Assembly: GCF_002197845.1 (NCBI RefSeq)
Contig: NZ_NIDE01000014.1
Location: 558,001 to 622,000, forward strand
Reading direction: 5' to 3'
DNA from: Fimbriiglobus ruber
Lineage (GTDB): Bacteria; Planctomycetota; Planctomycetia; Gemmatales; Gemmataceae
DNA length: 64,000 nt
Shown here: positions 34,295 through 61,119 of the stretch, piece after piece
Layout of the letters: each line of letters starts with the position of its first letter
Numbering within the stretch: position 1 is the stretch's first letter
Position numbers and translations under genes: made by a program
Notes under the pieces: generated by a model
The model's database searches: none
Seen by the model: only the letters and a program-made list of their open reading frames with translations
What the model was told of the DNA's origin: nothing

Positions 34295-35058
34295 GAGCGT
34301 TCGGATGTGGGTAGCAGCGACCGCGCCGAACACGTATAAGGTTCCGGTAGTCAAGAGAGAAAATCTCCACGCCCATGGCTTTTGTTGGTTCAACAAAGCG
34401 TGGTTACAGGGGGTGGGGACGAGTTTCTCGGGCGGTCTGCTTCTGGGGCTCACGCCGCGGTGTCACGCGCCGATACTCGGCGGCTGCACCCAACACGTAT
34501 GGGGACTCTGGCGGCCGAGCCCCGAAGGGTCCGGCGGCTGTGTCCGGGCACACGGCTCCCGGACCGGCCCGATGCCGTTCCGTTCCCGCGGTCCCGGCCA
34601 TTCAAGGCGGCTGGCTCACCCCCGAAGGGGTGTCCCGTTTCTGGGGGCTCGGGTTGCGGGGCAGACGTCGAGGTCTCGCCCCCGGTGGCGAGGGGGCGGG
34701 GAGCGTGTGAGGGCGGCACCGCGGTGCCGCCGCTCGTCGAGCCGCCGGCGGTGCCGTGCGGACTCGTGGACCGGTCGCACGACCGGAGCCCGTGTCACGT
34801 GTCCCCGCCCGCCCTCGCGACCGGGTGTTCTCGTCACGCGCTCACATCGGTCTTCTCCTTCGCCGGCTCTGCGGTGTTGTTCGGGACGGATCGGCGGCCC
34901 ATCAAAGCGACTGGTTGCCCGCGACACGACCCCCGACGCACGGCTCGGGCTCACGGTGACGGTGGGCGTCACTCGTGGCCCACGAGTGCTCGTGCGGGGT
35001 CACTCGGGTTGACGCGTCTGGCTCCCGTTCGGCACCGGCTCGCCGATCCCCCCAGTTC
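34295..35058. other. Gap between ISNCY and IS110 elements
   Basis: It begins with the second copy of the 17-bp target duplication. Frames exist on both strands but none has a family or start signals; they are rich in Arg, Gly and Pro. Several short GC-rich inverted repeats are present. I see no gene. Confidence 0.4.
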
Positions 35059-36170
35059 CCGCCGGTTCAACCGCGGACGAACCGGTCCACGTCGAACACC
35101 TTCTTCGTCCGCAGCAGGTGATACACGACCCGGCCGAGCTTGTGCGCGAAGATCGACAGCCCCTTGCCGCGGCCGTGCGTCGACTGGAGTTTGGCCAGAC
35201 ACTTCTTCATCCGCTCGTCCTTCTGGGCGCTCAACACGGCGGCCTCGGAGAACGCCCACTTGAGCCACGCGTTGCCGGCCTTCGCGTTCCCCACGCCGAC
35301 GATCTTGCCCCCCGACTCCTGCTTGGGCGTGATGAGTCGGGCGTAACTGCAGAACGGCTGCCGGGAATCGAACCGGGTGACCGTATCGATCTCCAAGAGG
35401 ATGGTCAGGGAGATGATCGATCCGACGCCGGGGATGGTTTGCAGGGCGGCCCGTTCGGTCGGGTCGTGTTGGTCGGCCGCGACTACGATGTCCCGCTCGA
35501 GCCGGCGGATCTCGGTGTCGAGCGGGGCGAGCAGGTTCAACCGGGCCTCGACCCCTCGCCGGGCGTGCGGGTCGGTGATGTCGTCCGCAGCCCCGTCCCG
35601 CTTGGACTTGTACTTGACGTCCGAGCCCACGGGGTCGAGGTTGAGTTGCCGGCGGACGGTGTGGACGTGGCCGTAGAGTTCGGCCCGTTGGCGGACGAGC
35701 CGGAGTCGGGTGCGTAACAGGTCCCGCAACCCGCGGCGCTCGTGTGGGTAGGCGTACGCGAGGGGGAAGTTGCCCCCGCGCAGGAGGCGGGCGAGGACCT
35801 CGGCATCGTGGGCGTCAGACTTGGTCTTGGACGCGTGGACGGCCTTGATCCCGAACGCGTGCCCGAGGGCGAACGGGAGGTGGTGCTCGCGGCACGTATC
35901 GGCCAGCCAGTACCACGAGTGGACGCACTCGCACCCGACGAGCAGATCGGGCCCGAACGGTTCGACCGCCTTCAGGAACGGCGCGGGCTTGGCGGGCAGG
36001 TTGCGGGACAGTTGGACGGTCCCGGCCTGGTCGAGGACGCAGACGAACAGGGTTCTTGCGTGCAGATCGACGCCGACATACGATGCGGCGGTTGCAGTGA
36101 GGTAACGCATCGGAAGACTCCGGGGTTGATCGGGGCGACATTCGCCCCACGGGGATTGAACCGGAACCTT
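35059..36170 (-). mobile_element. IS110-family element, ends approximate
   Basis: The transposase gene is bracketed by a 9-bp inverted repeat, CCGGTTCAA at 35062-35070 and TTGAACCGG at 36156-36164, like the subterminal repeats of the IS1111 group. IS110 elements make no regular target duplication, so exact ends cannot be fixed. The right end lies next to the 3' part of an attC-like site (36186-36266). Confidence 0.65.
35067..36110 (-). CDS. IS110-family transposase (DEDD type)
   Basis: 347 residues from ATG 36110 (GGAG seven bases upstream). The N-terminal DEDD RuvC-like domain has YVGVDLHARTLFVCVLD (D), LLVGCECVHSWYWLAD (E) and KTKSDAHDAEVLARLL (DxxD). The C-terminal Transposase_20 domain has LQTIPGVGSIISLTILLEI, FCSYARLITPKQESGGK and NAWLKWAFSEAAV with the conserved Ser. 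Length is normal and there are no breaks. Members of this family use a bridge RNA encoded in a non-coding end; which end would hold it is not clear here. Confidence 0.92.
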   Translation of the reverse strand: MRYLTATAASYVGVDLHARTLFVCVLDQAGTVQLSRNLPAKPAPFLKAVEPFGPDLLVGCECVHSWYWLADTCREHHLPFALGHAFGIKAVHASKTKSDAHDAEVLARLLRGGNFPLAYAYPHERRGLRDLLRTRLRLVRQRAELYGHVHTVRRQLNLDPVGSDVKYKSKRDGAADDITDPHARRGVEARLNLLAPLDTEIRRLERDIVVAADQHDPTERAALQTIPGVGSIISLTILLEIDTVTRFDSRQPFCSYARLITPKQESGGKIVGVGNAKAGNAWLKWAFSEAAVLSAQKDERMKKCLAKLQSTHGRGKGLSIFAHKLGRVVYHLLRTKKVFDVDRFVRG

Positions 36171-36185
36171 CAACAGTATCCAAGC

Positions 36186-36266
36186 GCTGCAGCAGACCCC
36201 GCCTCACGTGTTCTGTCTGAGTGATCAGTCTCCCCCTGGTGGGGTTGCTGAGCTGGGGCGTTCGGC
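36186..36266 (+). repeat. attC-like site J, 5' box missing next to IS110
   Basis: Inner arms CAGCAGACCCCGCC and GGTGGGGTTGCTGAG pair with one extra base on the 5' side. The 3' half is TGAG-CTGGGGC-GTTCGGC (GTTCGGC at 36260-36266), identical in layout to the sites of the 56-59 kb array. No GCCGAAC is found upstream, where the IS110 element ends. Confidence 0.55.
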
Positions 36267-36385
36267 CTGCTTCGAGTGTGTTGTGATTGCGGAGACGGGC
36301 CTCGGCGGTTGGGTTTGCGGCGCACGCCGCGCCGGCAAGTACGGATAAGCGGCGAACTCGTCTCACCGCTCAAGGAGTAGGCGCC

Positions 36386-38601: not shown

Positions 38602-38719
38602 ACCGAACTTCCTTTGAATCGGAGCGGTTGTGGCGCGGCAGCAGACGGCAGGGCTCCGAGTCCTTTTCGACGTCACACACCCGACGGCCCGCCGCCGCTG
38701 CTGAGTGTGGGCGTTCGGC
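38602..38719 (+). repeat. attC-like site H
   Basis: ACCGAAC (38602-38608), CAGCAGACGGC..GGGC paired with GCCCGCCGCCGCTGCTG with one extra A, then TGAG-TGTGGGC-GTTCGGC (GTTCGGC at 38713-38719). It is longer than the others (118 bp), and its 5' box adjoins the fold-back repeat. The gene 38736-39401 starts 17 bp later. Confidence 0.6.
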
Positions 38720-38735
38720 GAGGGAGGGCGCACGG

Positions 38736-39401
38736 ATGGCGGACACGATGTGGGTGGACCTCGTCGGCACCCTCCGCGACAACGGTGTCGAGTTCGAGCC
38801 GGGTCTGACGGACGCCGAGGTCGCCGGCGCCGAGTCGCGGTACGGGTTCCGGTTCCCGCCAGACCTGCGGGCGTTCCTCCGGGCCGGGTTGCCCCACGGG
38901 GGTGACTTCCCCGACTGGCGGAACGGCGACGAGGCCGCCTTGCGCGGGTGGCTCGATCTGCCCCGTCGGGGCGTTCTATTCGACATTGAACACAACGGGT
39001 TCTGGCTGAGCGACTGGGGGCCGCGCCCGGCGTCGCTCGGCGAGGCTCAGCGGGTCGCGGACGAGTTGGTGGCCGCCGCGCCGAAGCTCATCCCGGTCTT
39101 CAAGCACCGGATGATGCCATCGGAGCCACACTCGGCGGGTAACCCGGTGTTCTCCGTCCACCAGACGGACATCATCTACTACGGGGTGGACCTGCGGGAC
39201 TACCTCATCCACGAGTTCTTGGCCCGCGAGGACGTGGGCATCTGGCCGATCCCCGAGACGGTTCGGCGGGTGCCGTTCTGGGACATCGAGCGGTTTTTCA
39301 GTGTGCGGTGGGCGGATGGGGCGTGTGTGTTCGACAACGGCGCGGGTCAACTCCCGTGGCAAAGGCCCGCCGAACCGAGTTCAACAGACCCCGTCGAGTG
39401 A
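38736..39401 (+). CDS. SMI1/KNR4 (SUKH) family protein in a cassette
   Basis: 221 residues from ATG 38736 with GGGAGG eleven bases upstream. The N-terminal region matches SMI1/KNR4: [38 protein letters not shown], then [25 protein letters not shown], and in the middle [34 protein letters not shown] proteins are often immunity proteins against toxins of contact-dependent or polymorphic systems, but many bacterial members are unassigned. No toxin gene is adjacent. Its 3' end overlaps attC-like site I, and it starts right after site H, as integron cassette genes do. Confidence 0.8.
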
Positions 39402-39459
39402 CGGCTCCATAGGGGTAGAGTCATCCGAGCGACGGGGCTGCCGAACTCGGGCGCTCGGG
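39369..39459 (+). repeat. attC-like site I
   Basis: GCCGAAC (39369-39375) and GCTCGGG (39453-39459) form the outer boxes. Inner arms AGTTCAACAG-A-CCCCGTCG and CGACGGGGCTGCCGAACT pair with the extra A unpaired. The core carries GCT instead of GTT, so it may be less active. It overlaps the end of the SUKH gene. Confidence 0.6.
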
Positions 39460-39477
39460 TATAGAGGGCAGTCGTGC

Positions 39478-49042: not shown

Positions 49043-49579
49043 ATGCCCGCCGTACCCGCCTGCCCGACCGGCGACCAGTTGCTCGCCCACGCCCGCGGGC
49101 CGGGCTCGGGTACGGAGTCGATCGCGTCGCACCTGGCGGCGTGCGCGGGGTGCCGCCGGCGGGTCGCGGCGATGACCGGGGACGAGGCCGCGGCCCGGCC
49201 GCCGCTGGCCCAACTCGAGACCGTGCTCCCGGGCAAGGCCGCCCCGGCCGCCCCGGCGGCCCCCGCCCCGGCGGCCCCGGAAGCCTGGTGGGAAACCCTG
49301 ACGATGCCCGCCGTCACCGCTTGCCCGACCGGCGAGCAGTTGCGCGGCCACGCCCGCGGGCCCGGCTCTGGCCCCGGTGCGGAGTCGATCGCCGCCCATC
49401 TGGCGGCATGCGAAGGGTGCCGCCGACGGGTCGCGGTGATGGCCGGCAACGAGACCCCGGCCCGGCCGTCGGTCGCCCAACTTGAGACCGTGCTCCCGGA
49501 CAAGGTCACCCAACCGGCCGGCGGGCCGCGCCCCGCCCCCCCCCGACACCCGCGGCCGACGTCCCGGTCGAATTGCTGA
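49043..49579 (+). CDS. Zinc-finger (anti-sigma-like) N-terminal part of kinase 1, out of frame
   Basis: 178 residues, two copies of a module: CPTGDQLLAHARGPG, ESIASHLAACAGCRRRVAAM and LETVLPGK. HLAACAGC is the HxxxCxxC of zinc-binding anti-sigma domains. The frame ends TGA at 49577-49579 after a short out-of-frame tail. After the C9 tract at 49536-49544 the kinase frame reads PTPAADVPVELLSHPDYTD, the natural continuation. One added C, two lost C, or slippage would fuse the two into one kinase with a regulatory zinc domain. The arrangement is repeated exactly in 52390-52881. Confidence 0.8.
   Translation: MPAVPACPTGDQLLAHARGPGSGTESIASHLAACAGCRRRVAAMTGDEAAARPPLAQLETVLPGKAAPAAPAAPAPAAPEAWWETLTMPAVTACPTGEQLRGHARGPGSGPGAESIAAHLAACEGCRRRVAVMAGNETPARPSVAQLETVLPDKVTQPAGGPRPAPPRHPRPTSRSNC
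49536..49544 (+). promoter_or_regulatory. C9 homopolymer at the zinc-finger/kinase frame junction, copy 1
   Basis: Nine C in a row between GCCCCG and GACACC. The zinc-finger frame reads through to stop at 49579; the kinase frame is open across the tract. It is a candidate site for transcriptional slippage, phase variation or a sequencing miscount. Confidence 0.6.
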
Positions 49580-52356
49580 GCCACCCCGATTACACGGACG
49601 TCCGGGAACTCGGCCGCGGGGGCCTGGGCGTCGTCTACCTGGCCCAGCACACGTTGCTGAAGCGGTGGGAGGTGTTGAAGGTGATGGGCCGCCCTCAGAT
49701 GACCCAACCCGGGGCGGCCGACCGGTTCCTGCAGGAGGTCCAATCGGCCGCCCGGTTGGAGCACCCGAACGTGGTCAAGGCGTACACGGCCATGCGGGTC
49801 GGGGACACGCTCGCGTTCGCCATGGAATACGTCCCCGGGGTCGACCTGGCCAAGGTGGTCCAGACCGGGGGTCCGCTCGGGGTCAAGGTGGCGTGCTTTT
49901 ACGCGGCCCAGGTGGCCCTCGGGCTGCAGCACGCGCACGAGAAGGGGATGGTCCACCGGGACATCAAGCCGGCGAACTTGATGCTGCTGAAGGACGGGGC
50001 CAAGCAGGTCGTCAAGATCCTCGACTTCGGGCTGGCCAAGGTGACGAGCGAGCGGCCGGCGGACACCGGGCTGACGGGCGACGGTCAGATGATGGGGACG
50101 CCGGACTACATGGCCCCGGAGCAGGCCCTGGACGCGGCGAAGGCGGACATCCGGGCCGACATCTACGCCCTCGGGGTGACCCTGTACTTCCTCCTGACGG
50201 GCGTGTCGCCGTTCCGGCGGTCGAGCCTGCTGGCGACGCTGCACGCGCACCAGACGGAGTCCCCGCGTCCGTTGCAGGAATTGCGTCCGGACGTGCCGCC
50301 GGTGTTGGGTGCGGTCGTCGCCCGGATGCTGGCGAAGCAGCCGGCCGAGCGGTATCAGACGCCGAAGGAGGTGTTCGAGGCCCTGGCCCCGCTGTGTAAG
50401 GGGCAGCCCGGCGACGGGAGTACGGCCGGGCCCGCGGTCCCGACCGTACTCCCGTCGGCCGTTCCCGCCCCTGCGTCGTCGATTCACCAAGCCGCGACGA
50501 TTCTCGGGCCGAGCCCAGGCCCGTCGACCGCCGTCGACTGGCACGAGAACGTCCCACTGCCGAGCCCGCTACCCCACACGCGGCCGGTCGGTCCCGACGA
50601 GTTTGAAGAGAAGGTCGAGCAGCGGACGACGCCTTGGCTCTGGCCGATCGTTGGTGTGTCGATGCTGTTCGCTGTGACGTTCGCGACCGTGGGGGCGCTT
50701 TGGCTGGCCGGCGTGTTCAACAGTCACTCGCAAAGGAGTGCGACCGCGTCCTCGACGACCTCGACGACCTCGACGACCTCGAAGGCTGCGAGTGCTCGGG
50801 ATGACGTTTTGGCGCAACTCGCCCTCCGCAAAGCAGAACTCGATAGCCCGGAAGCGTCCGTGCGGCAGAAAGCCCTGCGAACGATCGCGGGCTCCCTGTC
50901 GCATTCCGACCCGGTCGTCCGTCGCAAAGCGGCGGAAATAATCGGCGGCGTTGAATCCGACATTGACCCGGTACTCGGCGCGATCAAAACGGCGGCGAAA
51001 GACGAAGACGCGCAAGTACAAATATCGGCCAGGAAAGCATTAGACAATCGCGACAGGCGAATCGCCGCGCGCGAGACGAAGGCACGGGAAGCAAGATTGG
51101 CCGCGCTGGGCGACCGCATAGAAGCCGCGAATTCTAAACCCGAGGGCCGGTCGAAGGCGATAGATGAGATCGCGGCCTACCTGAGCGACCCCGCCGCGGA
51201 CGTGCGCCGCCAGGCGGCGGCGTGGTTCGCCGAGACGGACTTCGATACCGAAGCGGTGATCGCTTCCATCCGAGCCGCTTCGAAAGACTCCGACGAGGTA
51301 GTGGCGAACTCCGCCCTCAAGGCCGTCGAGAACTACGATAAGCTCGCCGCGATGAAAGCCGTGAAAAAGCGGGAGACGGCTCTGGCGCGGCTGAAAGACG
51401 ACTTGGCGAACGCGAAGGACCCGGATGCGGCGACCCGCCAGAAGGCCCTCGCGGGGGTCGTGTCGTCGCTCAAAAGCAGCGATCCCGTGGTCCGGCGCGG
51501 CGCGGCGGAAGGGCTCGTCGGTCTAGACAGCGATGACGTCAACGTAGGTGAGGCGCTCCGCACGGCCACTACGGACTCCGATAACGAAGTGCGTCAATTC
51601 GCCCTGAAAGCCTCGGAGGCGTTCGAGAAGCGGGCCGGGAAGGCCCTGGAGGCCCACGTCAAGAAGCTCCAGTCGTCACGAACGACGGAGCAACTCGCCG
51701 CGCTCGGCGAGTTGGCCCGAATGGGCGCGAGGGCGCGACCGGCTTCGGCGGCGGTTGCCCAAGTGCTCGTGGCGAGCGGGGACGACACCGAGGTCAAGGA
51801 CGCGGCGCTCTCTTGCGTCGAGAAGATCGACCCGAAATGCCACCCCCACGTAGTCATCGCCCTGTTCGATGGGAGCCCGGCGAAGAAAGCGGCCGCGATC
51901 AACAAGCTGGGGAGCCTGGGTCCGGAGGCCATCGGTTCGGTGCCCGTTCTAAAACACATCTATCGTGAGAGCGCGAAGTCAACAGGATTCGCCATCATCA
52001 ACCCGAATTTTTCGAGCCTCCGAGCGCTCGTGAAAATCGTTCCTGATGACCCGGACATCGTCGCGGAAATCTTGATTTATCTGAAAATCCCCGCACAAAA
52101 CTTCCGGTCGTCGGCCATGCGCGGCGTCGGATTGGAATGCATCGATACGATCAAGGCCGACACGTCGCGCAAGGTGGAAGCATTGACGGCCGCCTTGCAA
52201 GACCCCGTCCACCGCGTCGCGGTCATCGAGAAGTTGAGGGGATTCCGCAAAGAGGCGAAACCGGCCCTGCTCGAAATCATGAAGCTCAAGACCGATCCGA
52301 ATGCCGCCGTCCGCGCAGCCGCAGGTCAAGCCGTCGAGGCGATCAAAGCGGATTGA
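49573..52356 (+). CDS. Transmembrane Ser/Thr kinase 1 with HEAT-like C-terminal domain
   Basis: 927 residues if started at TTG 49573, which overlaps the preceding TGA, so re-initiation is possible. The kinase frame is open further upstream into the C9 tract. Kinase: LGRGGLGVVYLAQ, Lys36 (EVLKVM), HRD 128-130, DFG 151-153, GTPDYMAPEQ; ends near 290. A proline-rich linker and one transmembrane helix (PIVGVSMLFAVTFATVGALWLAGVF, about 360-385) follow, then Ala/Lys-rich HEAT-like repeats (SHSDPVVRRKAAEIIGG, SSDPVVRRGAAEGLVG). The kinase domain is nearly identical to that of 52875-56024; the C-terminal halves differ. Confidence 0.9.
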   Translation: MLSHPDYTDVRELGRGGLGVVYLAQHTLLKRWEVLKVMGRPQMTQPGAADRFLQEVQSAARLEHPNVVKAYTAMRVGDTLAFAMEYVPGVDLAKVVQTGGPLGVKVACFYAAQVALGLQHAHEKGMVHRDIKPANLMLLKDGAKQVVKILDFGLAKVTSERPADTGLTGDGQMMGTPDYMAPEQALDAAKADIRADIYALGVTLYFLLTGVSPFRRSSLLATLHAHQTESPRPLQELRPDVPPVLGAVVARMLAKQPAERYQTPKEVFEALAPLCKGQPGDGSTAGPAVPTVLPSAVPAPASSIHQAATILGPSPGPSTAVDWHENVPLPSPLPHTRPVGPDEFEEKVEQRTTPWLWPIVGVSMLFAVTFATVGALWLAGVFNSHSQRSATASSTTSTTSTTSKAASARDDVLAQLALRKAELDSPEASVRQKALRTIAGSLSHSDPVVRRKAAEIIGGVESDIDPVLGAIKTAAKDEDAQVQISARKALDNRDRRIAARETKAREARLAALGDRIEAANSKPEGRSKAIDEIAAYLSDPAADVRRQAAAWFAETDFDTEAVIASIRAASKDSDEVVANSALKAVENYDKLAAMKAVKKRETALARLKDDLANAKDPDAATRQKALAGVVSSLKSSDPVVRRGAAEGLVGLDSDDVNVGEALRTATTDSDNEVRQFALKASEAFEKRAGKALEAHVKKLQSSRTTEQLAALGELARMGARARPASAAVAQVLVASGDDTEVKDAALSCVEKIDPKCHPHVVIALFDGSPAKKAAAINKLGSLGPEAIGSVPVLKHIYRESAKSTGFAIINPNFSSLRALVKIVPDDPDIVAEILIYLKIPAQNFRSSAMRGVGLECIDTIKADTSRKVEALTAALQDPVHRVAVIEKLRGFRKEAKPALLEIMKLKTDPNAAVRAAAGQAVEAIKAD

Positions 52357-52389: not shown

Positions 52390-52881
52390 ATGCCCGCCGT
52401 AACCGCCTGCCCGACCGGTGACCAGCTGCTCGCTCACGCCCGCGGCCCGGGCACCGAGTCGGAGTCGATCGTTACCCACTTGGCGGCATGCGCCGATTGC
52501 CGCCAACGGGTCGCGGCGATGACCGGGGACGAGACCGCGGCCCGGCCGCTGGCCCAACTCGAGACCGTGCTCCCGGACAAGGCCGCCACGGCGGTCGCCC
52601 GTCCGAACCCTACCGCCTCCCCGGCGCCTGCGGGAGCGTGGTGGGAATCCCTGGCGACGCCCGCCGTAACCGCCTGCCCGACCGGCGACCAGTTACCCGC
52701 TCAAGCCCGCGGCCCGGTGACCGGCCTCGGTGCGGATTCGGTGGCCGGCAACGAGACCCCGGCCCGGCCGTCGGCCGCCCAACTTGAGACCGTGCTCCCG
52801 GACAAGGTCACCCAACCGGCCGGCGGGCCGCGCCCCGCCCCCCCCCGACACCCGCGGCCGACGTCCCGGTCGAATTGCTGA
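52390..52881 (+). CDS. Zinc-finger (anti-sigma-like) N-terminal part of kinase 2, out of frame
   Basis: 163 residues and the same design as 49043-49579: CPTGDQLLAHARGPG, HLAACADCRQRVAAM and LETVLPDK, then a second, decayed module in which the HxxxCxxC pair is deleted (VTGLGADSVAGNETPAR). The last 60 codons match copy 1 almost exactly, including the C9 tract (52838-52846) and the out-of-frame tail to TGA. A GAGACGATGCG leader precedes both start codons. Confidence 0.8.
   Translation: MPAVTACPTGDQLLAHARGPGTESESIVTHLAACADCRQRVAAMTGDETAARPLAQLETVLPDKAATAVARPNPTASPAPAGAWWESLATPAVTACPTGDQLPAQARGPVTGLGADSVAGNETPARPSAAQLETVLPDKVTQPAGGPRPAPPRHPRPTSRSNC
52838..52846 (+). promoter_or_regulatory. C9 homopolymer at the zinc-finger/kinase frame junction, copy 2
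   Basis: Same nine-C tract and same flanks as 49536-49544. The frame break is identical, so both paralogues carry the same arrangement. Confidence 0.6.
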
Positions 52882-55800
52882 GCCACCCCGATTACACGGA
52901 CGTCCGGGAACTCGGCCGCGGGGGCCTGGGCGTCGTCTACCTGGCCCAGCACACGTTGCTGAAGCGGTGGGAGGTGTTGAAGGTGATGGGCCGCCCTCAG
53001 ATGACCCAACCCGGGGCGGCCGACCGGTTCCTGCAGGAGGTCCAATCGGCCGCCCGGTTGGAGCACCCGAACGTGGTCAAGGCGTACACGGCCATGCGGG
53101 TCGGGGACACGCTCGCGTTCGCCATGGAGTACGTCCCCGGGGTCGACCTGGCCAAGGTGGTCCAGACCGGGGGGCCGCTCGGGGTCAAGGTGGCGTGCTT
53201 TTACGCGGCCCAGGTGGCCCTCGGCTTGCAGCACGCCCACGACAAGGGGATGGTCCACCGGGACATCAAGCCGGCGAACTTGATGCTGATGAAGGATGGG
53301 GCCAAGCAGGTCGTCAAGATCCTCGACTTCGGGCTGGCCAAGGTGACGAGCGAGCGGCCGGCGGACACCGGGCTGACGGGCGACGGTCAGATGATGGGGA
53401 CGCCGGACTACATGGCCCCGGAGCAGGCCCTGGACGCGGCGAAGGCGGACATCCGGGCCGACATCTACGCCCTCGGGGTGACCCTGTATTTCCTCCTGAC
53501 GGGCGTGTCGCCGTTCCGGCGGACGAGTCTGCTGGCGACGCTGCACGCGCACCAGACGGAGTCCCCGCGTCCGTTGCAGGAATTGCGTCCGGACGTGCCG
53601 CCCGGGCTGGCGGGGGTCGTCGGCCGGATGCTCGCGAAGCAACCGGCCGAGCGGTATCAGACGCCGAAGGACGTGTTGGACGCCCTGGTCCCGCTGTATA
53701 AGGGGGCACCCGCCGGGCTCGTGGCCCCGGCCGTACTCCCAGCGGCCGTTCCCGCCCCCGCGTCGTCGATTCACCAAGCCGCGACGATTCTCGGGCCGAG
53801 CCCGTCGACCGCCGTCGACCGCCGCGAGTTCGTCCCGCCACCCCACACGCGGCCGGCCGACGGACTCGAATCCGAGTCTGATTTGCCTCGGTCGGACTCT
53901 TTTCGAACAAGTCCTTTGGTCGATATGCCCACCGTAATATCAGACCAAACGGAGCCTTTCTCGCGTCCGGCAGATCAGCCACTTGGCCGCGCGACTAAAT
54001 CGACCCACAACCGGCGGGGCAAGTTGATACGGATTGGCTTTGTCCTGGTGGGGTTGTTCGTGATCGGTGGTTTGTGCCTTGCCGCGGCGTTCTGGTACGC
54101 GGACCGGTCTTCCCGGTCGCCGGACCAGGCAACTGCGGGCGTACCCATCGCTGTACCGAAGGATCCCGCGCCGCCGGCGACGACGACTGAAATCGCTCCC
54201 GAGAATTGGCTGCCGACACTCCGGGCAAACGACGCGGCTGCGACACTACGCGTATTGAAGTCCCTCGCGGCAGTCGACGCCGGCCGCCAACCGCCGGGCG
54301 AGGAGTTGCTAACGGAAGTGACCGTCAAACTGAATCACGACTCCTCCGCCGTCCGGGACGCCGCTCTGGCCGTCTTACGACGCCACGACGCCGCCTCCCC
54401 GCCGACCGAGGCGCGCTTGCGAAAGGCTCTGTCGTGTGCGTGGATCGAAGGGCAGTTGTACGCCGTCCAGTGGTACGGACGAATTCAGGCCCCGCCACCC
54501 GTTGTTGACAGGTTGGAGGCACTCTGCCGCAACCCGTCTCCACAAACCACGGCTTTGCGTCTGGCTGCGGTGGACGCCTGGGTTGGTTGCCAGCCGGGAG
54601 CCCGGGCGTCGGCGTTTCATTGTTTGGCCGAGCGACTCGATGACCCCGAGCCGCAGGTCTCTGCGGCGGCGCAACGGGCTCTGCGGCGAACCGGATTCAC
54701 TCCCGAACAGCGGTCTCTCCTGGTGAACTATTTGAACTCGCCTCGGTTGGACGTCAGGTTCAAAACGACCCCGGCTCGTTCCGCCGTTGCCCAACTGTTG
54801 AGGGACGATCCGGCCGACACCGATCAACTCCTCCGCGCCTTTCGCCCCCTGTTGTCGGCCCGCGAACCTGCCGAGCTGAGGGCTGTCGCCGTCGACGTGA
54901 TTCTCGCGTCCGACGATGCGGTTCGCCGCTGCGCGACGAGCCAGGATGCGGACCCGGCCCCTGCTCTGGTCGACCTGCTCGTTGGCAACGACGGGGCGGT
55001 CCCCAACGCTTCCCCCGAGGTGCGCCGCCGAATCGTGACCCGCGTCGCCGCGGCGGCTCCGCTCGCGCTCCCGGCCGATCGCCTGATGGTCGTTCTTGAG
55101 CGCGACCCGGATGCGACCGTGTGGGCCGCGGCTGAGGGCCTCCTCTGTATCATGCCAGTCGCCTCCGCCGACGACGTGGCGCGGGTACGCAAGCTGCTGA
55201 ACTCACCCCGCGTCCGGGCCGCCGGGAAGGAGCAGGTGTTGGACGCGTTGGCGGCAGCCGACGACGGCCCGGCCCGCGATCTCGTGGCCGCGGCCTGGCC
55301 CGAGGTGTGGGATGTCTTTCAGGCCCAGGTCCGGCGCGCCGACGCACTCTCGCTGTTGACGAAAGGACTGTCGGTCGTCGCCCGGCTAATCGACCGCCGT
55401 CCCGGTGGGGCGGATGTCGACCGCGACCGCGCCATAGTCGACACTCTCATCGCGTTGGCGTTCGACACGGACGAGCGGCAAAACGAGATAGACCCGGACG
55501 TGCGAACCACTGCCGCCCGTTTGATCCGACCGTTCGGGGGGTTGGCAATCGAGTGCCTGGACAAGCGAGCCGCGAAGACCAAAAAAGACGATGTGGCCTG
55601 CCGACTGTACGGAGGCATCATTTCACTGGGCACTGACGGCCCCCTTCGCGACAAAGCGGTGGAAATCATGGCCGGTCGCGTACTCGGCACGGCAAAGGAT
55701 AAACCCGGATTGCGTCCCGCGTTACTTTCGGCCGCCGGGCGCCTGGGCGGAGACAGGTTCGTAGACTCTTTGTTGCTCTGGAGTGACCGTAAAAATCCGT

Positions 55801-56024
55801 CGACCGATGAAATGCATCCGTTAGAATTGCGGGTTTGGGCGACCGAGACTCTTGGCGCAATTGATCCAAAAACTCTGTCAGACGGCAGAGGAAAGGCGAA
55901 GGCAGACGTGCGATCAAAAGTTATTAATCAGCTTGTATTTTTAGAGCTCAATGGTACTGATCCGCGCATCAAAACCGCGGCCTCCGTGTCACTCCAACGG
56001 TTTCGAGCGGGACTCAAAAAATAA
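52875..56024 (+). CDS. Transmembrane Ser/Thr kinase 2 with HEAT-like C-terminal domain
   Basis: 1,049 residues from TTG 52875, overlapping the zinc-finger stop. The kinase region (LGRGGLGVVYLAQ, HRDIKPANLML, DFGLAKV, GTPDYMAPEQ) is nearly the same at DNA level as copy 1 up to about 53610. Next come a Ser/Asp-rich linker with several possible phosphosites (DLPRSDSFRTSPLVD, VISDQTEPF) and one transmembrane helix (IGFVLVGLFVIGGLCLAAAFWY, about 395). A long extracytoplasmic or cytoplasmic domain of helical HEAT-like repeats follows (LNHDSSAVRDAALAVLRRH). The divergent C-terminal domains suggest that the two kinases sense different partners. Confidence 0.9.
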   Translation: MLSHPDYTDVRELGRGGLGVVYLAQHTLLKRWEVLKVMGRPQMTQPGAADRFLQEVQSAARLEHPNVVKAYTAMRVGDTLAFAMEYVPGVDLAKVVQTGGPLGVKVACFYAAQVALGLQHAHDKGMVHRDIKPANLMLMKDGAKQVVKILDFGLAKVTSERPADTGLTGDGQMMGTPDYMAPEQALDAAKADIRADIYALGVTLYFLLTGVSPFRRTSLLATLHAHQTESPRPLQELRPDVPPGLAGVVGRMLAKQPAERYQTPKDVLDALVPLYKGAPAGLVAPAVLPAAVPAPASSIHQAATILGPSPSTAVDRREFVPPPHTRPADGLESESDLPRSDSFRTSPLVDMPTVISDQTEPFSRPADQPLGRATKSTHNRRGKLIRIGFVLVGLFVIGGLCLAAAFWYADRSSRSPDQATAGVPIAVPKDPAPPATTTEIAPENWLPTLRANDAAATLRVLKSLAAVDAGRQPPGEELLTEVTVKLNHDSSAVRDAALAVLRRHDAASPPTEARLRKALSCAWIEGQLYAVQWYGRIQAPPPVVDRLEALCRNPSPQTTALRLAAVDAWVGCQPGARASAFHCLAERLDDPEPQVSAAAQRALRRTGFTPEQRSLLVNYLNSPRLDVRFKTTPARSAVAQLLRDDPADTDQLLRAFRPLLSAREPAELRAVAVDVILASDDAVRRCATSQDADPAPALVDLLVGNDGAVPNASPEVRRRIVTRVAAAAPLALPADRLMVVLERDPDATVWAAAEGLLCIMPVASADDVARVRKLLNSPRVRAAGKEQVLDALAAADDGPARDLVAAAWPEVWDVFQAQVRRADALSLLTKGLSVVARLIDRRPGGADVDRDRAIVDTLIALAFDTDERQNEIDPDVRTTAARLIRPFGGLAIECLDKRAAKTKKDDVACRLYGGIISLGTDGPLRDKAVEIMAGRVLGTAKDKPGLRPALLSAAGRLGGDRFVDSLLLWSDRKNPSTDEMHPLELRVWATETLGAIDPKTLSDGRGKAKADVRSKVINQLVFLELNGTDPRIKTAASVSLQRFRAGLKK

Positions 56025-56244: not shown

Positions 56245-56254
56245 AACCGCAAAC

Positions 56255-56348
56255 TCCGAAACGGGTACGGCAGCAGACCCCGTCGCGTGCAGGCTCCGCC
56301 CGTGTAAAGTCGCCCGAGCGGCCGGGCTGTTGCGCTTGGGCGTTCGGC
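56255..56348 (+). repeat. attC-like site A
   Basis: TCCGAAA replaces the usual CCGAAC at the 5' side. Inner arms GCAGCAG-A-CCCCGTCGCG and GCGGCCGGGCTGTTGC pair with an unpaired A. The 3' half is TGCG-CTTGGGC-GTTCGGC (GTTCGGC at 56342-56348). Confidence 0.6.
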
Positions 56349-56376
56349 CACCGGCGGCGTTATAAGGAGGTGCCCG

Positions 56377-56577
56377 ATGTCCGAGGACATATATCGGCGG
56401 GTCAAATCGGTCCTGCTTGCTGTCTTGGTCCTCGGGAGCCTGTTCATCGGATGGCGTTGGTCGGAGAATGGGCGTTACCAACTGGTCGACTTCCGCAAGA
56501 CCGGGAGTCGGGTAAGACCTCTCCCGGTCATGGACACCCGCACCGGGGAGATTCAGACGGTGGACTGGAAGGATTGA
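56377..56577 (+). CDS. Small signal-anchored cassette protein
   Basis: 66 residues from ATG 56377; GGAGG lies seven bases upstream. One transmembrane helix (VLLAVLVLGSLFIGWRW, about residues 11-28), then a short basic and polar tail (LVDFRKTGSRVRPLPVMDTRTGEIQ). It fills the space between attC-like sites A and B exactly, the layout of a one-gene cassette. No family is recognised. Confidence 0.65.
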   Translation: MSEDIYRRVKSVLLAVLVLGSLFIGWRWSENGRYQLVDFRKTGSRVRPLPVMDTRTGEIQTVDWKD

Positions 56578-56583
56578 GGCCGG

Positions 56584-56680
56584 GCCGAACCGGCCGTTGC
56601 ACCTGATCGCGGCGGCACAATGGTTTTTCGGGGTTCATCGTCTCACCAGCTGCCGCGACAGGTGAGATGTAGCGTTCGGC
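56584..56680 (+). repeat. attC-like site B
   Basis: The clearest site. Outer boxes GCCGAAC (56584-56590) and GTTCGGC (56674-56680). Inner arms CACCTG-A-TCGCGGC and GCCGCGACAGGTG are perfectly complementary apart from one extra A. The 3' half is TGAG-ATGTAGC-GTTCGGC. A 28-base loop separates the arms. Confidence 0.7.
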
Positions 56681-56696
56681 GGCGGAGGGCTTTGGA

Positions 56697-56987
56697 GTGT
56701 CGAGCGACGCAGAAGAGCAAATCATTCGGCTGCTGACCGACCTGCGGGAGGAACTGGCCTACCGTCGGCGGGTGCTCGATGAGTCGATCGGCTTACAGAA
56801 GCGGGCCGTCCGGCTCCAACGGATCGGGTTGGCCATAGTCCTCGCGATGATTGTGGCGGGCCTGGACTCATCGCGCTCGCACAGTTCGCCCCCCGTGGGC
56901 GCGAGCACACCGAACCCAGCGCCGCGGCAGACCCCGTCGCACGACGGCATCATGGGGATTGAGTTGGCCGAGCGGCGGGGCTGCTGA
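56697..56987 (+). CDS. Small membrane cassette protein
   Basis: 96 residues from a GTG at 56697 (GGAGG eight bases upstream). An N-terminal helix (AEEQIIRLLTDLREELAYRRRVLDESI) looks like a coiled coil. A transmembrane segment (LQRIGLAIVLAMIVAGL) and a Pro/Ser-rich tail follow. The last 25 codons and the stop lie inside attC-like site C, so the tail ASTPNPAPRQTPSHDG is site-derived. No family is recognised. Confidence 0.6.
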   Translation: MSSDAEEQIIRLLTDLREELAYRRRVLDESIGLQKRAVRLQRIGLAIVLAMIVAGLDSSRSHSSPPVGASTPNPAPRQTPSHDGIMGIELAERRGC

Positions 56988-57002
56988 GCGTTGGCGTTCG
57001 GC
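56909..57002 (+). repeat. attC-like site C
   Basis: ACCGAAC (56909-56915) and GTTCGGC (56996-57002). Inner arms GGCAG-A-CCCCGTCGC and GCGGCGGGGCTGC pair with the A unpaired. 3' half TGAG-CGTTGGC-GTTCGGC. Confidence 0.65.
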
Positions 57003-57019
57003 GAGGGAGGTTGCACCGG

Positions 57020-57556
57020 ATGGGGCGATGGGGGTTCAACGACAAATCACGGTTCGGCGACAGGTCGCGGTTCGCCGTCGAGGTCGGCGAGTCCCACAGC
57101 GACACCGACGCCGCCCGACGGGTCGATGTGTGGGCCGCGGGCGTCTGGCTGACGTGCGACGACAACAATGTGTACGTCCCGCACTTCGCGGGGTGCCTCC
57201 AACACGCGGTCGGCTACCTCCTCTCCGATCCGCAGTGCAGCTGCGGTCGGCCGTACCCCGAGCTGTCGGTCGCGGACAACTACCGCCGGCTCTGGGGCGG
57301 CGCCCAGACCGACAACGCACAGTATCTGTCGTATCGGTTCATGCACTGGGGGCCGACGGCTGATAACGTGAGTATGCTCCTGTTCCGGGAAGCGGGCACC
57401 GCGTATCTGCCGTTCTCGTTCTGTTGGCCCGTCCGCGCAGAGCTGGGCCAGGTGTTCGTGGCCCAGCTGCCGGAATGGGAGCTGGCGGCCGTGCTCCACG
57501 ACACCGCGTGGGCGCTCATGTGGGACTGGGCGGATCGCAGTAGGTGGCCCAAGTAG
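57020..57556 (+). CDS. Hypothetical cassette protein, soluble
   Basis: 178 residues from ATG 57020 (GGGAGG nine bases upstream, at the cassette junction). Segments: SRFAVEVGESHSDTDAARRVDVWAAGVWLTCDDNNVYVPHF, CSCGRPYPEL and FREAGTAYLPFSFCW, then LPEWELAAVLHDTAWALMWDW. No signal peptide or membrane helix. The strand-rich N-terminal part and the Trp-rich helix at the end recall immunity-protein folds, but I cannot name a family. It lies between sites C and D. Confidence 0.65.
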   Translation: MGRWGFNDKSRFGDRSRFAVEVGESHSDTDAARRVDVWAAGVWLTCDDNNVYVPHFAGCLQHAVGYLLSDPQCSCGRPYPELSVADNYRRLWGGAQTDNAQYLSYRFMHWGPTADNVSMLLFREAGTAYLPFSFCWPVRAELGQVFVAQLPEWELAAVLHDTAWALMWDWADRSRWPK

Positions 57557-57649
57557 GCCGAGCCCGACGCCGCGGCCGACCCCGGCGCGCGGCGCAATTC
57601 CGGGCTGGATATCCTTGAACGGCCGGATCACTGAGTTTGGCCGCTCGGC
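57557..57649 (+). repeat. attC-like site D (degenerate)
   Basis: GCCGAGC (57557-57563) and GCTCGGC (57643-57649) pair with each other but have AGC/GCT in place of AAC/GTT. Inner arm pairing is weak. The spacing TGAG-TTTGGCC-GCTCGGC is kept. Confidence 0.5.
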
Positions 57650-57666
57650 GGAAAGAGACCTTCAGG

Positions 57667-58014
57667 ATGGCAAAGCTCACGGTCACTCACCAGCCTCCTC
57701 GTCACGCTGACGGTCGGCCATCGGCGGTCATCGAGGGCTTCGGTGGCGTCCTCACCGACTTCTTGTTCTGTGAGGCGGCCAGCAGCCCAGGGGTGCGGTA
57801 TACCCTCAACTGGCTCGACCAAACCATTGCTGGCGACGGGGTGATCGACTGGGCGGGCAACGTCTTCTTGATCACCGGCGATCGCGACCGCGTGTCTGTG
57901 ATCGAGGACGAAGACATCATGGGTCGACCGGAACACCGTTGTGAGTTACCGACCCAGGAGTTCCGGACACTGCTTGTCGAGTGGGCGGCCGCTCTTGAGT
58001 CTGAGGGCTGGTAA
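57667..58014 (+). CDS. Hypothetical cassette protein, soluble
   Basis: 115 residues from ATG 57667. The sequence has GVRYTLNWLDQTIAGDGVIDWAGNVFLITGDRDRVSVIEDED and ends TQEFRTLLVEWAAALES. It is acidic, has no membrane helix and looks like a small alpha/beta protein; the final helix LLVEWAAALE is typical of small immunity-like proteins. No family is recognised. It lies between attC-like sites D and E. Confidence 0.6.
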   Translation: MAKLTVTHQPPRHADGRPSAVIEGFGGVLTDFLFCEAASSPGVRYTLNWLDQTIAGDGVIDWAGNVFLITGDRDRVSVIEDEDIMGRPEHRCELPTQEFRTLLVEWAAALESEGW

Positions 58015-58018
58015 GTAG

Positions 58019-58107
58019 GCCGAACCTGGTGCAGTAGACCCGGCGCGTGACGGCTTTTCGGGGAATCAGACTCTCCAGCCCACCGCCGTTGAGTTTGACC
58101 GTTCGGC
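58019..58107 (+). repeat. attC-like site E
   Basis: GCCGAAC (58019-58025) and GTTCGGC (58101-58107). 3' half TGAG-TTTGACC-GTTCGGC. Inner arms GCAGTAGACCCGGCG and CAGCCCACCGCCGTTGAG pair only in part. Confidence 0.55.
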
Positions 58108-58138
58108 GGAGGAACGGTGCGTGCATGGAGGCGGCATA

Positions 58139-58516
58139 ATGGGTAAAAGTTCGTTTGCGTGGCGAGGGAGGTTCTGGTGGCCTTTGTCACTCGCTGCCAC
58201 AACCTTGTTAATCGGATGCTGCGCCGGGTTGGCGCATTTCGCAATACGGCCAACGAATGGCGCCCGCGTCGAAAATCTGGAACGCGAGATCAAGGAACTA
58301 TTGCCCGTAGGAAGTTCTCGCGAGCAGGTTATTTCGTGGCTGGCCTTCCACCAGTTCGAATCGTGGGACATTGAAGAGAGATCCGGCCGAAAATGCGGCA
58401 CGGGTACAACAATTCCGAACAGCAGTTGGGTGCAGTCAGCCTTGATTGACATCGAGTTTTACTTTGACGACCGAGGAGGACTAGAAAAAATTTACATCGA
58501 GAGGGAATGTTACTGA
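58139..58516 (+). CDS. Membrane-anchored cassette protein
   Basis: 125 residues from ATG 58139 (GGAGG seven bases upstream; GTG 58121 is an alternative). The N terminus has basic residues and one hydrophobic segment (WPLSLAATTLLIGCCAGLAHFAI) with a lipobox-like LIGCC, so a lipoprotein is possible. The mature part has VENLEREIKELLPVGSSREQVISWLAFHQFES, resembling the PepSY/BamE-like SSREQVxxWL helix, and ends IDIEFYFDDRGGLEKIYIERECY. Lower GC than its neighbours. Function unknown. It lies between sites E and F. Confidence 0.6.
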   Translation: MGKSSFAWRGRFWWPLSLAATTLLIGCCAGLAHFAIRPTNGARVENLEREIKELLPVGSSREQVISWLAFHQFESWDIEERSGRKCGTGTTIPNSSWVQSALIDIEFYFDDRGGLEKIYIERECY

Positions 58517-58606
58517 CGTTAAGGGACTCGCTCGTAAGCCGCAAGACTGTTGCTATTAGCTAGCCCACGCGTTCAGTTAAGCGATCGCAGTGGACGTTCG
58601 AGCAAC

Positions 58607-58693
58607 GCCGAACCCGACGCCGAGGCAGACCGGGCGCCATTACGGCTTTCCGTGACATGACGCCCAATCCGGCTCCCGGCTGCTGAGTTCGGC
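58607..58693 (+). repeat. attC-like site F
   Basis: GCCGAAC (58607-58613) and GTTCGGC (58687-58693). Inner arms GGCAG-A-CCGGGCGCC and CTCCCGGCTGC pair with the extra A. Here TGAG runs directly into GTTCGGC without the seven-base spacer. Confidence 0.6.
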
Positions 58694-58778
58694 CGAATCA
58701 GCGACTCCGCCAGGTCCGTCCCTCGGGCGCGTTGCAGCCGGCCTTCCAGCCGGTGGAAAACCTCGAAGAGGAAGTTTC

Positions 58779-59426
58779 ATGAATCCACCGTCATCGCCGG
58801 TAGAACACGTTGGCCCAGAGACTGGCTCGCCTAGCGCTCGTAGGCGCATCTTGTTCCTTTGCCCTTGCGTAGCTGGGCTCCTCGGTGCCGCCTTGGTCGC
58901 TTGGTTCTCCGGCTACAACCTGGCCATCTCGCTGGCCTGCGCGTTCGGCCCGATGGCCGGGGTTTATGCCCTCGTGGGTAGGGATAGCAATGCGGCCACG
59001 GCCCTCGGCGGGGCGGGGGCCGGCGTGCTGGTTTGGCTCGCCGCGTGGTCTGCCACGGTGCTCGTCGATTACGCCCTCTTTGCGAATATCGAGTTTATTC
59101 ATGCCCGATTGGACTTATCTGGCGGAGAATACGGACCCATGTTCCCGTTCGCCTTTCTCTGGATGTGCGGAATGCCCGCGGGGCTGCCGGCGTTCGGAGT
59201 GATCTGGTTAGTTGGCGCCGTACGTCGATGGCGCCAAGATAGGATGCTAGTCGGGGCGGCGGGGGGAACCGTGCTGGCCGGCGTAGGCGGATTGTTGGCT
59301 ACCGCTCTGACAGAATCTTATCCGCTCCACGAGTTACTGGTTGTTGGTTTGGGCCCGTTTGCCGCAGTTGCGGGCAGTGCCGGAGTTATCTGTCTTGGGC
59401 GGAAATGGGCGGCATCCATGTCGTAA
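58779..59426 (+). CDS. Multi-pass membrane cassette protein
   Basis: 215 residues from ATG 58779 (AGAGGA six bases upstream). About six transmembrane helices: FLCPCVAGLLGAALVAWF, LAISLACAFGPMAGVYAL, GVLVWLAAWSATVLVDYAL, FPFAFLWMCGMPAGLPAFGVIWLVG, VGAAGGTVLAGVGGLLATAL and LLVVGLGPFAAVAGSAGVICL. No motif of a known transporter is seen. It lies between attC-like sites F and G, an unusually hydrophobic cargo for a cassette. Confidence 0.65.
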   Translation: MNPPSSPVEHVGPETGSPSARRRILFLCPCVAGLLGAALVAWFSGYNLAISLACAFGPMAGVYALVGRDSNAATALGGAGAGVLVWLAAWSATVLVDYALFANIEFIHARLDLSGGEYGPMFPFAFLWMCGMPAGLPAFGVIWLVGAVRRWRQDRMLVGAAGGTVLAGVGGLLATALTESYPLHELLVVGLGPFAAVAGSAGVICLGRKWAASMS

Positions 59427-59461
59427 TAAGGGGACGCAGACCGTTTTTGTCACTGCTGAGG

Positions 59462-59556
59462 ACCGAACAATTTGCTGCAGTAGACCGGGCCGCCCTTTCG
59501 GCTTTCCAAGTTTGCCGCCCGGCAGGCGGTCCGGCTGCTGAGTGGAGCCGTTCGCC
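59462..59556 (+). repeat. attC-like site G, last of the array
   Basis: ACCGAAC (59462-59468) and GTTCGCC (59550-59556). Inner arms GCAGTAG-A-CCGGGCCGCC and GGCGGTCCGGCTGCTG pair with the extra A unpaired. 3' half TGAG-TGGAGCC-GTTCGCC. Confidence 0.65.
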
Positions 59557-59694
59557 GGCCGAGAAAGCGCTGCCGGGCCTGACGCTGGTCGGATGGCTGT
59601 GCGTCTCATAAGTTGCAACTCCGTCAAAGCTCTTTGACAACGTCCAGAGTTCGTATCGCTCATAGTACCCTTCGGAGAGGCTTTAAGGATCGTC

Positions 59695-60584: not shown

Positions 60585-60888
60585 TCTATACTTTACGCGG
60601 TCCGGAATGAGGTCTTTCGCCGCCCGGGTGTGGGCGGGGTCGGCGTCCCCGGCCGGTGCGACCTCACCCCCAGCCCCTCTCCTCCGAGAGGAGAGGGGAG
60701 CACGTGGGCGAACGTCACCGACACGGGCGGACGCCGTGTCCCGAACGGCCGCCCCCCACTCCGCGAGCCGTCCGCTCGTGCTCCCCTCTCCTCTCGGAGG
60801 AGAGGGGCCGGGGGTGAGGTCGCCGCTCCCACCCGTCTCCACTCGCCGGGACGGAGAACACCTCATTCCGAACCGCGCGAAGTATAAT
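60585..60888. repeat. 300-bp imperfect inverted repeat with nested GAGAGGAGAGGGG hairpins
   Basis: 60585-60630 (TATACTTTACGCGGTCCGGA) matches the complement of 60845-60888 with few changes. Further in, CTCCTCCGAGAGGAGAGGGG-type hairpins at about 60656-60705 and 60777-60830 are inverted copies of each other, together with the adjacent CTCACCCCC/GGGGGTGAG. This is a fold-back element without coding capacity. 60439-61286 holds no gene. Confidence 0.8.
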
Positions 60889-60930
60889 ACGTTTGATGAG
60901 TGCCATTTCGTCGAGATGTTCGCCCCGGCG

Positions 60931-61119
60931 CTCGGCGCGGGTCTCCGACCCCGCCGTTCGGTCCGACCGCAGGTCTCCCCGCCCGCCGCCCGCGCGCGGC
61001 GCCGTTCGGTCCGACCGCAGGTCTCCCACGCCAGCCTGGCGCAGGGGCGGTGTCCGAGGGGGCGAGCGTCGGGAGACCTGCGGTCGCGAAGAACGGCGGG
61101 GTCGGAGACCCGCGCCGAG
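60931..61119. repeat. Fold-back repeat, copy 2 of the 38391-38530 family
   Basis: CTCGGCGCGGGTCTCCGACC at 60931 is answered by its complement ending at 61119, with inner GACCGCAGGTCTCC/GGAGACCTGCGGTC arms. The sequence is nearly the same as 38391-38530 except for an extra internal copy of the GTTCGGTCCGACCGCAGG unit. Confidence 0.85.

Follow-up and report, generated by a model that had tools for sequence, protein, structure and literature searches.

We found that positions 56255-59556 of a 64,000-nucleotide stretch of Fimbriiglobus ruber DNA (the window; contig C14:558001-622000 in a genome of 12.36 Mb and 20 contigs) very probably form a cluster of attC sites lacking an integrase (CALIN), that is, a chromosomal run of gene cassettes, each consisting of a small gene and an attC site, located away from any integrase gene. 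Seven imperfect palindromes, which we call sites A to G, alternate with six single small genes, with everything on the plus strand (Table 1). The defining features of a CALIN are two or more clustered attC sites, small genes, and no adjacent integrase, and here there are seven sites in 3.3 kb.

The sites were detected with a covariance model (CM) that we trained on 10 attC-type sites located elsewhere in the genome, none of them from the window. The model, CM R1, consists of an R stem of 7 bp, an L stem of 15 bp in which one A is extrahelical, two spacer pairs, and a terminal loop left open; it was run on the window without filters. It recovered 7 of the 7 sites, with E-values ranging from 6e-25 (site C) to 9e-6 (site E), and it also detected a second small cluster of three sites at 36-40 kb in the window. 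When these second-cluster sites and opposite-strand shadows are set aside, the next-best matches in the window have E-values of ~0.003-0.01. An earlier note on this DNA, made from the letters alone, had described seven plus-strand palindromes alternating with single small genes, a layout confirmed by this model built from outside sites; the ten sites to which that note referred are A to G plus those at 36172-36267, 38623-38720 and 39368-39460. The exact L'-R' motif has 19 occurrences in the genome, compared to 0 in a reversed control. A looser scan for GCCGAAC...GTTCGGC, combining a regular expression with folding, gave many false matches and was replaced by the covariance model.

The outer (R) boxes of the sites had been characterized in the earlier note as being of the GCCGAAC/GTTCGGC kind. 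This description is exact for B and E, and for C apart from its R'' box, ACCGAAC, whereas R'' of A, the boxes of D, and R' of F and G deviate from it. Sites B, C, E and G retain both the AAC and the GTT triplet; in A (R''), D and F the triplets are altered or missing. In site D the change from the usual boxes is compensatory, and the GTT triplet is gone; in site F the CM alignment puts AATCAGC at the R' position, and a GTTCGGC at 58687-58693 falls in the place expected for the spacer; and in site E the L arms are mismatched. Among 150 aligned sites R' begins with GTT in 143 and is GTTCGGC in 134, and none has GTTRRRY, so they depart from the canonical RYYYAAC/GTTRRRY consensus, with the proviso that canonical-type sites could be under-sampled in this set because the model was trained on GTTCGGC-type sites. 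Since strict conservation is limited to the AAC/GTT triplets of attC R boxes (PMC3607928), we interpret the mismatch to GTTRRRY as a variant of attC and not as grounds for exclusion.

Standard pairs occupy 95.1% of stem cells in an alignment of 144 distinct sites from this genome and its relatives, spanning many genera, as compared to 80.6% in shuffled alignments, and two-sided compensatory changes are seen at 20 of the 24 pairs (388 cells, versus 122 in shuffles; 0 of 500 shuffles were as high), although fitting the alignment to the structure inflates both the pairing and the covariation counts. When the partner was slid by 1-3 columns, pairing fell to 27-35%. The extrahelical A is retained in 145 of the 150 sites amid a variable surrounding stem, and the attC terminal region varies in both length and sequence. 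Judged by these comparisons of sequence, the predicted hairpin is a real attC fold, with the pairing, the covariation and the kept extrahelical A as its attC signature. Sites B, C and F have clearly low DNA folding z-scores and D has a borderline one; those of A, E and G are not low. Folding energy alone is not significant for these last three sites, which are identified by homology.

We found no intI gene or intI remnant in the window or in the ~20 kb on either side of it, as the description of the region in the earlier note as a cluster of attC sites without an integrase would lead one to expect. That note also proposed a search for intI in the same genome, and we found one intact integron integrase on the same contig (C14:1281594-1282535), ~660 kb from the array, which scores 447 bits against TIGR02249 (cut-off 265). 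This IntI matches PF13495 and PF00589 and has a full-length alignment to the V. cholerae IntI structure 2A3V (VchIntIA; 310 residues, 289 bits) that spans the IntI-specific segment and the catalytic residues R-K-HxxR-H-Y. Five attC sites lie downstream of the gene in the same orientation, with R boxes and core as in the window sites, and intI is transcribed toward its cassettes (a "reverse" integron). A second intI gene, followed downstream by its own attC sites, is split by an IS66-type element (G000:C18:75245-77827; L019 17166-19951). Genome-wide, the covariance model finds ~62 attC sites (E <= 0.002) in ~20 clusters, and many loci with one or two sites are dispersed across the genome. The array is not adjoined by intI and attI, as it would be in a complete integron; the nearest intact intI is the one ~660 kb off.

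We searched 59 genomes, including that of F. ruber itself, and found at least one attC site in 43 of them and a match to integron integrase in 21 (above the cut-off in 17). Within the family, genomes with intI contain more attC sites (Mann-Whitney P = 1.3e-4, a value that is indicative because the genomes compared are related and differ in completeness). A DNA search with the whole region against 59 genomes of relatives found no syntenic copy of the array; the matches elsewhere are to site B, fragments of site C, a homolog of cassette gene 2, the gene that flanks the array downstream, and, past 60.6 kb, short repeats. Site B shares 84% identity with a site in G020 (over 97 bp) and with one in G026 (over 86 bp), which belong to two other genera, and the other sites of the array have at most short DNA matches in relatives. 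By sequence, the array mixes attC subtypes, that of site B being common in other genera, as expected if the cassettes had different sources.

In other members of the family, homologous cassettes adjoin different attC sites, with high identity from TTCGGC onward. Our evidence on cassette edges comes from unclipped comparisons only; a comparison clipped at TT forces an edge and was not used. The cassette 2 homolog is in G012, a member of another genus (L158 9737-9939; G012:C5:223735-223938), and its DNA similarity begins at position 56675, which is the TT of the site B R' box. This coincidence of the homology edge with the predicted crossover TT is no more than suggestive, being a single instance in which a base other than G precedes the TT in G012. 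The G012 homolog, which has no attC site to its left, may be a non-attC (attG-like) insertion. The earlier note had named palindromes fixed after core genes, without movement of whole units, as the pattern that would speak against integron cassettes. We did not see this pattern, given the lack of synteny, the clustering of the attC sites, their greater abundance in genomes with intI, and the homologous cassettes beside different attC neighbors.

In a tree of 30 IntI proteins, the reverse-oriented enzymes of Planctomycetota and some unassigned neighbors form one clade (support 98/95), and four canonical-oriented enzymes from the same class form another (100/99). Reverse- and canonical-oriented integrons, with IntIs in these two clades, coexist in the same family. 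In one locus (L251, G012:C13:140000-158000) intI lies within a long array and has same-strand attC sites on either side.

In integrons generally, the substrate of IntI is the bottom strand of attC in its folded form; the enzyme cleaves R' between G and TT, and the cassettes end up joined in a single orientation. The most likely origin of the array is that its cassettes were captured and joined one by one by an IntI of the type encoded 660 kb away, which would have acted on the folded bottom strand of attC with a crossover at G^TT of R'. The array would then have become separated from its platform through a rearrangement, through loss of a local integrase, or because the cassettes had integrated away from attI. 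It now appears to be decaying, as D and F are without the GTT core, and B, C and E, where the R boxes are intact, could perhaps still be excised. Support for the CALIN interpretation comes from the independent covariance model, the intI-linked sites, the covariation, the correlation between attC and intI, the swapped neighbors, the edge of cassette 2, the cargo without known families, and the one-strand layout of seven sites and six genes. Several observations weigh against it. Gain or loss of units within the array was not observed, in a comparison that covered other species only. The window sites have diverged from the integrase-proximal ones (26-84 versus 76-114 bits), so some of them may not serve the resident IntI as substrates. 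The lack of an intI remnant in the window and its ~20 kb flanks means that loss of a local integrase is not evidenced.

A possible alternative, though one we consider rather less than probable, is that the array is a fossil: its sites would be old, degenerate and beyond use by any integrase, and would persist only thanks to useful genes or slow deletion. The loss of the GTT core from D and F, the damaged R'' of A, CM scores that are mostly far below those of integrase-proximal sites, and the state of the second array, in which two sites are decayed or interrupted by an insertion sequence (IS), are all compatible with this alternative, but the R boxes are perfect or near-perfect in B, C and E (with C scoring 84.5 bits), every unit is filled by an intact open reading frame (ORF), and the same genome encodes an intact IntI. 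It is somewhat doubtful that the cassettes instead entered singly at non-attC (attG-like) sites and that attC x attC recombination joined them afterwards, in an array that never had an integrase. Insertion at attG has been published (Loot et al. 2024, as cited in PMC11023631), and single entry would fit the absence of an intI remnant nearby, the numerous one- or two-site loci dispersed over the genome, and the start of the G012 homolog at the crossover TT with no attC to its left; but the base to the left of that TT is not G, we saw no empty site in any strain, and rearrangement or integrase loss accounts for the same pattern. More unlikely still would be that the integrons of Gemmataceae work with an R box code specific to them and with a separate clade of reverse-oriented integrases that has seeded cassettes across the genome into the ~20 sites, so that their CALINs, this array included, would be products of the seeding and not decayed integrons. 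Last, it is hardly credible that, instead of being recombination sites, the palindromes function in RNA as hairpins, either terminators or regulatory elements, or belong to an interspersed repeat unrelated to integrons, and we set these readings aside: the palindromes do sit at gene 3' ends and fold, but they carry the attC signature of sites next to a genuine intI (R and L boxes that pair, a near-invariant extrahelical A, a spacer and a variable terminal structure), they have neither a terminator-type T run nor an Rfam match, the number of sites tracks intI, and cassettes with the same gene adjoin different sites.

Table 1. Features of the CALIN (sites A to G) and of the second array in the window.
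Feature	Position	Strand	R boxes (R''/R')	CM match	Remarks
attC site A	56255..56348	+	TCCGAAA/GTTCGGC	56254-56349, 57.2 bits, E 6e-16	
Cassette gene 1	56377..56577	+			ORF, 66 aa, one hydrophobic anchor stretch, no Pfam/NCBIfam family
attC site B	56584..56680	+	GCCGAAC/GTTCGGC	56583-56681, 43.2 bits, E 2e-11	
Cassette gene 2	56697..56987	+			ORF, 96 aa; stop codon inside site C
attC site C	56909..57002	+	ACCGAAC/GTTCGGC	56908-57003, 84.5 bits, E 6e-25	Best preserved
Cassette gene 3	57020..57556	+			ORF, 178 aa, soluble, no Pfam/NCBIfam family
attC site D	57557..57649	+	GCCGAGC/GCTCGGC	57556-57650, 29.7 bits, E 6e-7	Decayed
Cassette gene 4	57667..58014	+			ORF, 115 aa, soluble, no Pfam/NCBIfam family
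attC site E	58019..58107	+	GCCGAAC/GTTCGGC	58018-58108, 26.1 bits, E 9e-6	
Cassette gene 5	58139..58516	+			ORF, 125 aa, lipoprotein-like, no Pfam/NCBIfam family
attC site F	58607..58702	+		58606-58703, 28.8 bits, E 1e-6	Decayed on R' side
Cassette gene 6	58779..59426	+			ORF, 215 aa, polytopic membrane protein, no Pfam/NCBIfam family
attC site G	59462..59556	+	ACCGAAC/GTTCGCC	59461-59557, 45.4 bits, E 4e-12	Last of the array
Second array, attC site	34326..36266	+		36172-36267, 45.6 bits	IS110-family element inserted after R''
Second array, attC site	38623..38720	+		20.9 bits, E 5e-4	Decayed
Second array, cassette gene	38736..39401	+			Weak SUKH-1 (SMI1/KNR4) match, PF09346 E 2e-4, below gathering score
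Second array, attC site	39368..39460	+		55.4 bits, E 2e-15	

Cassette cargo typically consists of small membrane, lipoprotein-like and soluble proteins, usually without a known family. The six cassette proteins of the array hit no family at a meaningful score in Pfam or NCBIfam, and a scan of GTDB genomes yielded no relative of cassette protein 3. Immediately upstream of the array, at 49573-52356 and 52875-56024, are tandem paralogous serine/threonine kinase genes with near-identical N-terminal kinase domains, and on its other side, at 60587-60990, is a ~300-bp inverted-repeat element with four further copies in the genome (91-94% identity).

In the second array, the first attC site is split by an IS110-family element at 34326-36183, whose transposase is encoded at 35070-36173 on the minus strand, leaving GCCGAACA at ~34327 and the rest of the site at ~36183-36266. 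A different IS110-family element is found in nine attC sites of the genome at an identical point, GCCGAACAAGG^...^(A/G)(A/G)CGCTGCAGCAGAC, at loci L017 (C14), L019 (C18), L160, L161 (C2) and L162 (C17). The IS1111-attC insertion sequences, such as ISKpn4 and ISPst6, belong likewise to the IS110/IS1111 superfamily and enter attC at a single fixed position (PMC11187229), whereas here there are two different IS110-family elements in a planctomycete host; the likeness is one of insertion point.

The array adds a well-supported planctomycete case to the known integrons, in a family where integrons are little described, and the 43 of 59 genomes with sites indicate that attC-based cassette traffic is family-wide. 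What makes it interesting is the lineage of its host, its variant R boxes and how many arrays lie scattered over the genome; it involves no new mechanism. The R box variant could cause searches of the IntegronFinder/HattCI type to undercount integrons in this phylum, and it provides a natural test of R box recognition by IntI. Our search of open papers (subscription papers were not covered) turned up no account of Gemmata or Gemmataceae integrons.

The remark in the earlier note that its author knew of no description of such a cluster overstates its novelty, because CALINs are a standard class in IntegronFinder, with a mean of almost 6 attC sites (PMC9024848), and a Planctomycetes attC covariance model exists (Ghaly et al. 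2021, PMC8352920). Like other CALINs, the array has at least two attC sites (seven here) and small genes in one orientation with no adjacent intI; it differs from the usual CALIN in its R boxes (GCCGAAC/GTTCGGC and not RYYYAAC/GTTRRRY) and its planctomycete host. The work of Ghaly et al. showed that planctomycete chromosomes carry attC arrays, as is the case here. Integrases that point toward their cassettes are known in Treponema denticola and its relatives (PMC3607928), where, as in the reverse integrons described above, attC sites lie 3' of intI in the same orientation. The reverse IntIs of Planctomycetota form their own clade, in a tree from which Treponema was left out, and the R' box of T. 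brennaborense, GTTAGGT (PMC3607928), fits GTTRRRY, whereas the Planctomycetota R' boxes that we found do not. In comparison with these systems, the array is a real and ordinary example of a CALIN, and its unusual features are not unprecedented in kind.

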